Assembly: GCA_017467105.1 (NCBI GenBank) | Contig: JAFTSU010000028.1 | Span: 99,926 to 163,925, forward strand | Direction: 5' to 3' | DNA length: 64,000 nucleotides | Source: Clostridia bacterium | GTDB taxonomy: Bacteria > Bacillota > Clostridia > Oscillospirales > CAG-272 | Shown: piece by piece, positions 40,675-42,727 of the stretch | How positions within the stretch are numbered: the first letter of the stretch is position 1 | Layout of the letters: each line of letters starts with the position of its first letter | Translations under genes and position numbers: made by a program | Notes under the pieces: generated by a model | Databases searched by the model: none | What the model was told of the DNA's origin: nothing | The model's input: only the letters and a program-made list of their open reading frames with translations

Positions 40675-41016
40675 GGGGGTTCGAAGAAAATATTGCAAAA
40701 TTTATCAACATTTTGTACATAATTTTTTGCAAGGATATTCCTCTATTGGTTATTTACTCACAAAAGCTCTGTCAAAATTCGGTACTGCCGCGAAAAAAGG
40801 CTCGTTTTTGTCAACTTTATATTACTTTCTTACACTATTTTGGATTTTTGGGAATAATTTCCCGGGGGATTTCAAAAAACGCAAGTCAGATTATAATTGC
40901 ATTTTAAAAGTGCGCTCGCAACCGTTCCGCAGCCCAAAACAGCGCTTTTTTATTTGTTTCATCGGTAATGTGAAAAGCGCCATTCCATATGTCTTACGAA
41001 GATTTCGCGAAAAGCC
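40675..41016. other. AT-rich gap before the CNNM leader
   Basis: No gene is supported. A bulged hairpin AAAAG(T)GCGCT / AGCGCTTTT (40906-40957) with a T run on the plus strand could be a terminator, but no plus-strand gene ends before it. Confidence 0.4.
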
Positions 41017-41045
41017 TTGACAAGACGGATAATGTATGGTATAAT
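41017..41045 (+). promoter_or_regulatory. Consensus promoter of the CNNM leader transcript
   Basis: Perfect TTGACA (41017-41022) and TATAAT (41040-41045) with a 17-bp spacer. The expected start near 41052 is about 200 bases ahead of the transporter gene. Confidence 0.9.
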
Positions 41046-41084
41046 ACTGAATAAATAACGCATTGACGATTTCTTGGAGGAAAT

Positions 41085-41141
41085 ATGGACGGCGACACAG
41101 ACGGGGATACTTGTCAGAGTACCGTAATACATATGATATAG
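41085..41141 (+). CDS. 18-residue acidic leader peptide upstream of the CNNM gene
   Basis: A short open frame, MDGDTDGDTCQSTVIHMI, with an excellent ribosome binding site (TTGGAGG, 4 bases before the ATG). It lies about 30 bases after the predicted transcription start. Its stop codon ends 3 bases before the first arm of a terminator hairpin, so a ribosome at the stop codon would cover that arm. The first eight residues hold four aspartates. These facts fit a leader peptide that controls termination; whether it is translated cannot be told from sequence. Confidence 0.6.
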   Translation: MDGDTDGDTCQSTVIHMI

Positions 41142-41144
41142 GAC

Positions 41145-41183
41145 GGCACAGCCACACTCTCGGGTATGGCTATGCCTTTTTTT
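41145..41183 (+). terminator. Leader terminator (attenuator candidate) ahead of the CNNM gene
   Basis: A 10-bp stem with one mismatch (41145-41154 with 41167-41176), a 12-base loop and seven T residues. It lies between the promoter and the transporter gene, so it must be passed by read-through unless a weak second promoter exists (an isolated TATAAT at 41216-41221 lacks a -35 box). Confidence 0.85.
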
Positions 41184-41223
41184 GCTTTCACAAATTCTCT
41201 CTTGCGTTATATAACTATAATAA

Positions 41224-41265
41224 ATGAAAGGTAGTTTTTCAACACAATCATGGAACCTCACTTAG
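41224..41265 (+). other. Possible 13-residue upstream frame overlapping the CNNM start
   Basis: An ATG at 41224 opens a 13-codon frame that ends 13 bases past the CNNM start codon in another frame. Neither this ATG nor the CNNM ATG has a good ribosome binding site close by; AAAGG at 41227-41231 is 18 bases from the CNNM ATG. Coupled translation is possible but unproven. Confidence 0.25.
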
Positions 41266-42563
41266 TTACGTATCTCGTTATAATCTTGATATGTATCATT
41301 CTCTCGGCGTATTTCTCCGCGACGGAGACCGCATTCTCCACCTTTAACCGTATCAGAGTCAAGAATATGGCTGAAAAGGGTAACAAAAAGGCGGCCGTGG
41401 CTCTTAAGCTCGCAGACAATTACGACAGCCTCATTTCCACAATACTTATAGGAAACAACATCGTTAATATTCTCAGCGCATCTCTGGCTACCCTTTTCTT
41501 CACCGGACTTATAAAAAGCAACCCCGATCTTGCAGCAACCGTATCAACGATCGTTCTCACTCTGATTGTTCTGATGTTCGGTGAGATCTCACCTAAGACT
41601 ATGGCGAAGAATTCACCCGACGCCTTTGTGCTTTTCTCCGCTCCTATCATCAAGGTCCTGGTTGTTTGCTTTACTCCCTTGAATTTCGTTATCAGCAAGT
41701 GGCAGGCGCTTCTTGCAAAGCTGACTAAAAACGACGATGATAAGGGTATGACAGAAGAGGAGCTTATCTCTATCATAGAGGAGGCAGAGGAGGACGGCGG
41801 TATTGACGAGGAGGAGAGCTCTCTTATCAAAAGCGCTATCGAGTTCGGCGACCTTGAGGTTGGAGATATTTTTACTCCCAGAATCGACATCACCTCCCTG
41901 CCCGTAACGGCGGATAAGGATACCGTTGAAAAGGTATTTACCGAGTCAGGATATTCACGAATTCCCGTCTATGAAAACGACCTTGACAACGTGCTTGGAA
42001 TACTCTACTACAAGGATTTCTTTGCGCTGGCGCACGAGAACAGCGTAAACATCACCGAAATACTGAAGCCCGTTATCTTCGTTGCCAAAACGCAGAAGGT
42101 TAACGATCTTATGAAGGATCTGCAGGAGAAGCAGCTTCATATGGCAGTTGTAACCGACGAGTACGGCTCCACGGCAGGTATCGTTACTCTGGAGGATATT
42201 CTGGAGGAGATCGTCGGAGATATCTGGGATGAGCATGACGAGATCGTGGAGGAGATCAAGGATCTCGGCGACGGTGAGTACGAGGTCTCCGGTATGGCAA
42301 ATATCGAGAAGCTCTTTGACGAGCTTGAAATTGAGCTTGACGAGGAACTGGATGCGGCAACCGCAAACGGCTGGGCAATGGCAGTTCTGGAGAGAATACC
42401 CGAGGAGGGTGACGTATTTGAATATAACGGACTCTCCGTTAAGGTTCTGCAGATGGACGGCAGAAGAATACAGACCCTGCATATCGTAGATACAAGACCC
42501 ACCGACGAGGACAAGACTGAGGAGTCCGACGAGACGAATAACGAGTCAGACTCCGAGCAGTAA
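41250..42563 (+). CDS. CNNM/CorC-family transporter (hemolysin-like, DUF21-CBS-CorC)
   Basis: Membrane protein of the family that exports or exchanges magnesium or related divalent ions. The 437-residue protein has a DUF21 membrane domain with four hydrophobic segments (residues 1-180, including YFSATETAFSTFNRIR), a CBS pair (about 200-325, VTDEYGSTAGIVTLEDILEE), and a C-terminal CorC_HlyC domain (about 345-425). The tail is highly acidic. Homologues such as MpfA of Staphylococcus protect against high Mg2+. The start codon lacks a clear ribosome binding site, which together with the leader peptide and terminator upstream suggests regulated expression. Confidence 0.92.
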   Translation: MEPHLVTYLVIILICIILSAYFSATETAFSTFNRIRVKNMAEKGNKKAAVALKLADNYDSLISTILIGNNIVNILSASLATLFFTGLIKSNPDLAATVSTIVLTLIVLMFGEISPKTMAKNSPDAFVLFSAPIIKVLVVCFTPLNFVISKWQALLAKLTKNDDDKGMTEEELISIIEEAEEDGGIDEEESSLIKSAIEFGDLEVGDIFTPRIDITSLPVTADKDTVEKVFTESGYSRIPVYENDLDNVLGILYYKDFFALAHENSVNITEILKPVIFVAKTQKVNDLMKDLQEKQLHMAVVTDEYGSTAGIVTLEDILEEIVGDIWDEHDEIVEEIKDLGDGEYEVSGMANIEKLFDELEIELDEELDAATANGWAMAVLERIPEEGDVFEYNGLSVKVLQMDGRRIQTLHIVDTRPTDEDKTEESDETNNESDSEQ

Positions 42564-42584: not shown

Positions 42585-42628
42585 AAACGCGCCCACGGCT
42601 AAATTAGTCCGGGGGCGTGTTGATTTTT
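42585..42628 (+). terminator. Terminator of the CNNM gene
   Basis: AAACGCGCCC (42585-42594) pairs with the GGGGGCGTGTT segment (42611-42621), followed by GATTTTTA, 22 bases past the stop codon. Confidence 0.8.
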
Positions 42629-42727
42629 ATGGAGTGACAGTCAATATCATAGATTGCTAAAATCACTACCGCACTAGAAATTATCACCATAGGGAGCAAG
42701 CCTCGCATAAGGCAAATGCTATACTCT

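Follow-up and report, generated by a model that had tools for sequence, protein, structure and literature searches.

In the window (the whole 64,000-nt stretch of DNA from a Clostridia bacterium analysed here), the gene of a CNNM-type membrane protein is preceded by a short, Asp-rich leader ORF whose stop codon lies just ahead of an intrinsic terminator. We incline, with a little more than even confidence, to the view that this arrangement is a ribosome-based attenuator that keeps a Mg2+ exporter ON when Mg2+ is ample and OFF when it is low, which would be a sensible sign for an exporter. If true, the sensing of Mg2+ through destabilisation of the ribosome by its nascent peptide would extend beyond enteric bacteria, here in the control of export, not import, and with the sign reversed.

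All features of the locus lie on the + strand. The element opens with a sigma-A type promoter (41017 to 41045) matching the consensus at 12/12 positions: a -35 box TTGACA (41017-41022) and an extended -10 box TATAAT (41040-41045), separated by a 17-nt spacer. About 30 nt after the predicted transcript start comes the ATG (41085) of the leader ORF MDGDTDGDTCQSTVIHMI, with the RBS GGAGGA immediately 5' of it; the frame has 18 codons and occupies 41085 to 41141 including its TAG stop (41139-41141). The intrinsic terminator (41145 to 41183), assigned from its fold and its covariation, begins 3 bases past the leader stop, and is made of a 5' arm (41145-41157), a 3' arm (41162-41176) and a run of seven T (41177-41183); its stem contains mismatches, and a pattern scan of the window missed it. 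The CNNM gene follows at 41250 to 42563, encoding 437 aa with a CNNM membrane domain (PF01595, E 5.2e-50), a CBS pair (PF00571) and a CorC_HlyC domain (PF03471). An earlier sequence-only reading had proposed the promoter, the 18-codon frame with its strong RBS and the terminator 3 nt after the stop, all of which are confirmed here; it had also held that the CNNM start lacks an RBS, which stands for an RBS at normal spacing, but an SD-like GAAAGG (41226 to 41231) is present at the unusual distance of 18 nt 5' of the start. On the 3' side of the gene, a G+C-rich inverted repeat followed by a T-rich run is visible by eye at 42587-42630, and is probably the gene's own terminator. The host genome is an incomplete 1.68-Mb assembly in which a search for further copies of the element gave the element itself and two weak, short matches. 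The nearest named record, among the best 80 of 587 matches in GTDB contigs, comes from an uncultured Clostridia bacterium of roe deer rectum, and its CNNM protein is 83% identical.

To what extent is this layout kept among relatives? The closest ones form a subclade of 17 distinct loci with a CNNM identity of at least 60% (the window gene, L004, together with L005-L019 and L036; the CNNM match of L019 contains one in-frame TAA), drawn from 59 related genomes (43 with a CNNM match, 30 loci kept) and from GTDB contigs (best 80 of 587 matches). A leader starting M-D/N, rich in Asp and usually running to (T/N/S)-C, is present in all 17, with an acidic pair, adjacent or one residue apart, within residues 2-9, and a promoter with a 17-nt spacer and a match of 10-12/12 precedes it in each of them, window included. 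The sequence-only reading had staked its case on the frame being kept among relatives; the comparison was run, and the reading survives, with the Asp-rich frame kept in 17/17. Alignment gaps between the ATG and about residue 10 are all of 3 or 6 bases (6/6), and further along the leader they often disrupt the frame. As it is conserved among relatives, the leader is very probably translated, as a regulatory frame; synonymous change is of little help as coding proof, because the early Asp codons are almost always GAC. A Cys occurs at leader residue 8-10 in 15/17 loci (codon 10, 41112-41114, in the window), and N-C is also seen in several distant leaders. Closer to the gene, GAAAGG (or GGAAGG/GAGAGG) lies 15-48 nt 5' of the CNNM start in all 16 script-parsed loci of the 17, window included. 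A hairpin is predicted between this SD-like motif and the CNNM ATG in only some relatives (L009, L010, L014, L016, L017 and L036), where it could shorten the effective SD spacing.

Over the whole region, the subclade alignment shows the terminator as its sole structure, and this structure covaries: 89.7% of 204 cells are paired and 13 cells have changed on both sides, values that were each reached by 0/500 shuffles, two weaker covariation measures being matched by 17/500 and 36/500. The 139-nt whole leader fold of the window has a z of -1.69, and 9/200 shuffles fold as well or better. Within the leader of the same alignment, RNAalifold gives 0 consensus pairs, and a hairpin named there by hand has 77.5% of its cells paired, with covariation not above shuffles. 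A conserved antiterminator was rejected, none being found in the leader or in the whole region of this alignment. Could the RNA nevertheless bind the metal by itself, as a riboswitch, the ORF being accidental? The same weak leader hairpin, GAC..TGTC, and the stems predicted inside some other leaders would suit this explanation, which we regard as very improbable: the leader has no consensus structure, its gaps are in frame, and the sole weak Rfam match within 40900-41400 is on the opposite strand (E 0.61). A known riboswitch is rejected, as no Rfam model reaches its gathering score anywhere in the window; when 20 CNNM loci lacking a clear leader were checked for known RNAs, only tRNAs came up. 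Just as improbable as the metal-binding RNA is a classical amino-acid attenuator sensing charged Asp-tRNA, an idea invited by the several Asp codons close to the start: besides the lack of any antiterminator, the downstream gene lies outside amino-acid metabolism, leaders of other groups carry Glu, Ser and Asp-Pro mixtures, and stalling close to the start would free the terminator, the opposite of what a biosynthetic attenuator requires.

In 17/17 subclade loci the leader stop sits between -13 and +18 nt relative to where the terminator 5' arm begins, and within a scoring range of -12..+17, picked after the data had been seen and applied to sequences that are related and not independent, it falls in 15/17, as compared with an average of 6.05 over 2000 shuffles of the mid-leader, none of which exceeds 12. 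The terminator would also close a transcript of about 130 nt, as expected if the leader were an independent small gene ending at a terminator of its own, unrelated to a CNNM gene served by a separate promoter. The gap between terminator and gene is AT-rich, and contains TATAAT in L004 and L036; yet the best promoter-like sites in the gaps of the subclade are weak (6-9/12 for a full promoter), the association between leader and CNNM gene is maintained across clades, and there are leaders that overlap the start of the CNNM gene, or that by the folds should pair with the SD of that gene, all of which makes an independent gene improbable.

In the attenuator that we favour, a ribosome finishing the Asp-rich leader would halt at the stop codon beside the terminator 5' arm and block its pairing, and RNA polymerase would continue into the CNNM gene; were the ribosome instead to abort (or stall) on the acidic first ~8 residues, the 5' arm would stay free, the terminator would form, and CNNM would be off. 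Chadani 2017 is reportedly the original paper on ribosome destabilisation. Acidic residues early in the nascent chain are reported to destabilise ribosomes (PMC9718836, PMC11282234), and high Mg2+ to counter drop-off on acidic nascent chains (PMC9718836). Because acidic nascent N-termini destabilise ribosomes and Mg2+ counteracts this effect, we infer that ribosomes drop off in a Mg2+-dependent manner, that completion of the leader would track Mg2+, and that the gene would be ON at ample and OFF at low Mg2+. MpfA is described as a Mg2+ efflux system (PMC8844918), as are MpfA/CorB-type proteins more generally (PMC8844918, PMC12421838), and by analogy with this family Mg2+ export is the probable activity of the window protein. 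The sequence-only reading keeps both its anatomy and its sign (finishing means read-through and on, drop-off means off): the sign is backed by the conserved Asp-rich start, by a stop near the 5' arm throughout the subclade and by the covarying terminator, and also follows from the different outputs predicted in other Clostridia.

Several points speak against a Mg2+ switch of this kind. Transcription is uncoupled in some Firmicutes, which could limit ribosome-mediated antitermination. Leaders of the window type have few acidic residues, with Gly/Ala/Thr between them, and their first 9 residues include no proline, which counts against it; hardly any abortion is reported for two yeast ORFs carrying 4 acidic residues (PMC9718836), and in the reporter described in PMC11282234 EE or DE alone gives no EttA dependence, the DPEE motif being required. 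The conserved Cys near residue 8-10 is left unexplained by the model, and the absence of the leader from many other CNNM genes also counts against it.

A strict leader was defined as a frame of 8-60 codons within 300 nt that starts with ATG behind an SD and has 3 or more acidic residues among positions 2-9 (2 or more for a relaxed leader), and was looked for ahead of 104 distinct Clostridia CNNM loci, a set enriched in the subclade of the window (17). Duplicates (L034, L035 and L111, equal to L005, L008 and L025) had been removed from this set beforehand, and L031-L033 were excluded as loci where the preceding base belongs to a preceding CNNM gene, or as minor paralogues. Strict leaders are found at 36/104 loci (a count that takes in the doubtful L085, MYNYEKDD.., and L101, MYNFEIPD..) and at 19/87 outside the subclade, as compared with 15/2080 dinucleotide shuffles of the same regions; for relaxed leaders, the figures are 51/104, 34/87 and 83/2080. 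At either cut-off, 0/107 intergenic regions upstream of other genes qualify, these regions being taken from the window and from 20 stretches of related genomes; with coding upstreams let in, other genes give 5/289 strict and 16/289 relaxed leaders. A tree built from the 104 proteins shows 10 changes of the relaxed label, which covers 27/29 rows of a clade that includes the window gene. A narrow leader pattern, which fails to catch the window's own MDGD start, occurs at 11 places in the 59 genomes: 9 are ahead of CNNM genes, and the other 2 belong to unrelated coding frames, at their start or within them.

The class as a whole is poorer in leaders. A search of 391 genomes gave matches in 79; apart from 4 known loci and 7 left out, 68 new loci were examined (28 + 40), of which 18 have a relaxed leader (doubtful L199, L207 and L228 included) and 13 a strict one, the upstream regions of L224 and L179 being short. 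In same-genus tandem CNNM pairs, the first gene has a leader in 0/10 cases. Upstream of 20 divergent paralogues (14 of the same genus, 6 of the same order), a loose listing that makes no SD demand returns frames in L123, L126, L127 and L129-L132, none of them clear and that of L127 (MISGDLDVPRS..) arguable. Because the class-level set is poorer and the tandem first genes have none, the leader is a property of particular CNNM lineages, not of the whole family.

Does the leader sense Mg2+ as such, or the general capacity for translation? A translated leader of the same sign might respond to ABC-F factor or EF-P activity, to ribosome defects, to polyamines or other cations, or to stalling that involves Cys, and we consider this set of candidates, taken together, rather unlikely. 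Acidic N-termini are reported to need ABC-F help in E. coli (PMC11282234), and charged or Asp-Pro stretches to be hard for B. subtilis (PMC11381351); the Cys shared by 15/17 leaders would fit as well. Stalling on Cys, however, has to contend with its absence from 2/17 leaders, and the tie to CNNM genes, seen in the 27/29 rows of one clade, suggests a cation-linked signal instead, as the Mg2+ attenuator supposes.

Outside the subclade, other leader types are recognised, to which we give names of our own: MDDPSKRR, MDEPP, MDSDSSD, S-D-D-A..P-Y (its records bear titles such as Ruminococcus and Oscillospiraceae, among others), and one leader, MSDPDPAGLPRSP, that resembles the start of MgtL. From outside the subclade 33 leaders were chosen by eye and treated by single-sequence folds with inferred CNNM starts, with no control or covariation, and 5 of them (L023, L025, L028, L029 and L030) come from same-genus genomes with CNNM proteins only ~39-46% identical. 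A hairpin with a T-run is present in 20/33, and in 20/20 of these the strongest one starts at most 7 nt past the first stop-codon base, often inside the frame. The Hungatella hathewayi strain of L041, a cultured gut species of the Clostridia, also has a leader together with a clear terminator. In 6/33, including 4/4 MDDPSKRR loci, the CNNM SD (four scored bases) is predicted to pair with leader bases, and in 4/33 the leader overlaps the CNNM start. In all three arrangements, as modelled, a finished leader should favour CNNM expression. The remaining 7/33 (L026, L037, L038, L043, L044, L051 and L087) fit no output by script, which counts against the model as far as such folds can tell; among them, L037 and L038 pair the SD partly, and a hairpin is visible by eye in L043.

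Two further observations concern these leaders. In L020, L025, L096 and L103 the leader frame spans the entire terminator hairpin, and peptide endings such as AYLR...RRRAFLCLKK recur; similar peptides occur in L182, L200, L205, L212 and L213, where the spanning is judged from the peptide alone. MDDPSKRR leaders (L065, L068, L070, L081 and L192) have near-identical first codons, and in the four that were folded (L065, L068, L070 and L081) the predicted structure pairs their end codons with the CNNM RBS.

Taken as a family, these leaders and their outputs suggest a broader reading, to which we give about even confidence as a whole: Clostridia would gauge whether Mg2+ is sufficient, and so control its export, by how fragile their ribosomes are when acidic peptides are nascent on them, with fast-evolving leaders (MDDG.DGDTC, S-D-D-A..PY, MDDPSKRR, MDEPP, MDSDSSD) ahead of CNNM genes, and with three outputs (intrinsic terminator, RBS shielding, gene overlap) in which a finished leader always means exporter on. 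The many natural variants could teach which acidic patterns destabilise Gram-positive ribosomes.

How does this leader compare with known systems? A search of open-licence papers found no description of such a leader ahead of CNNM genes in Clostridia. Amino-acid attenuators of the trp/his type have a leader ORF and a terminator before biosynthetic operons; the window element shares both, whereas here no antiterminator is found, the recurrent property is acidity and not a single codon, and the downstream gene is non-biosynthetic. In excerpts of the open-licence literature, Gram-positive Mg2+ importers are associated with riboswitches, and exporter control is scarcely described; the corA motif is gammaproteobacterial (PMC6429828).

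Control at high Mg2+ has been reported in enteric bacteria: Salmonella corC expression rises at high Mg2+, as does that of mgpA at neutral or alkaline pH (PMC12421838). The CorC N-terminus is reported to hold a destabilising sequence (PMC12421838); unlike the present case, this sequence is within the gene itself. E. coli YoaL is a leader encoded before yoaE/mgpA: changing the leader start to a stop lowers translation of mgpA, which encodes a CorC-domain protein (PMC12421838). YoaL, however, begins MDRHRRHF, which is not acidic, and overlaps yoaE, and MgpA has a TerC membrane domain, not CNNM.

Another parallel is mgtQ, an acidic short ORF before Salmonella mgtB whose abortion is reported to control a Mg2+ transporter (PMC8092293); it differs in being intergenic and in that abortion promotes translation of an importer, no terminator being described in the part of that paper drawn on here (PMC8092293). 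A further parallel is MgtL, the mgtA leader of E. coli and Salmonella: it too is a short leader with a destabilising acidic start before a Mg2+ transporter, and the completion or abortion of its translation is the signal (PMC11282234). A short ORF with an RBS and an acidic or proline-containing N-terminus before a cation transporter is likewise found in 17/17 subclade loci, its translation argued from conservation. mgtL serves the importer mgtA, acts by Rho-dependent termination and is on at low Mg2+ (PMC11282234); the window leader does not follow this scheme, in which complete translation exposes a Rho-dependent terminator. Its terminator is instead intrinsic, the leader stop being placed at the 5' arm; a probable exporter lies downstream, and the predicted sign is the opposite: if true, the leader system would be the mirror image of mgtL.
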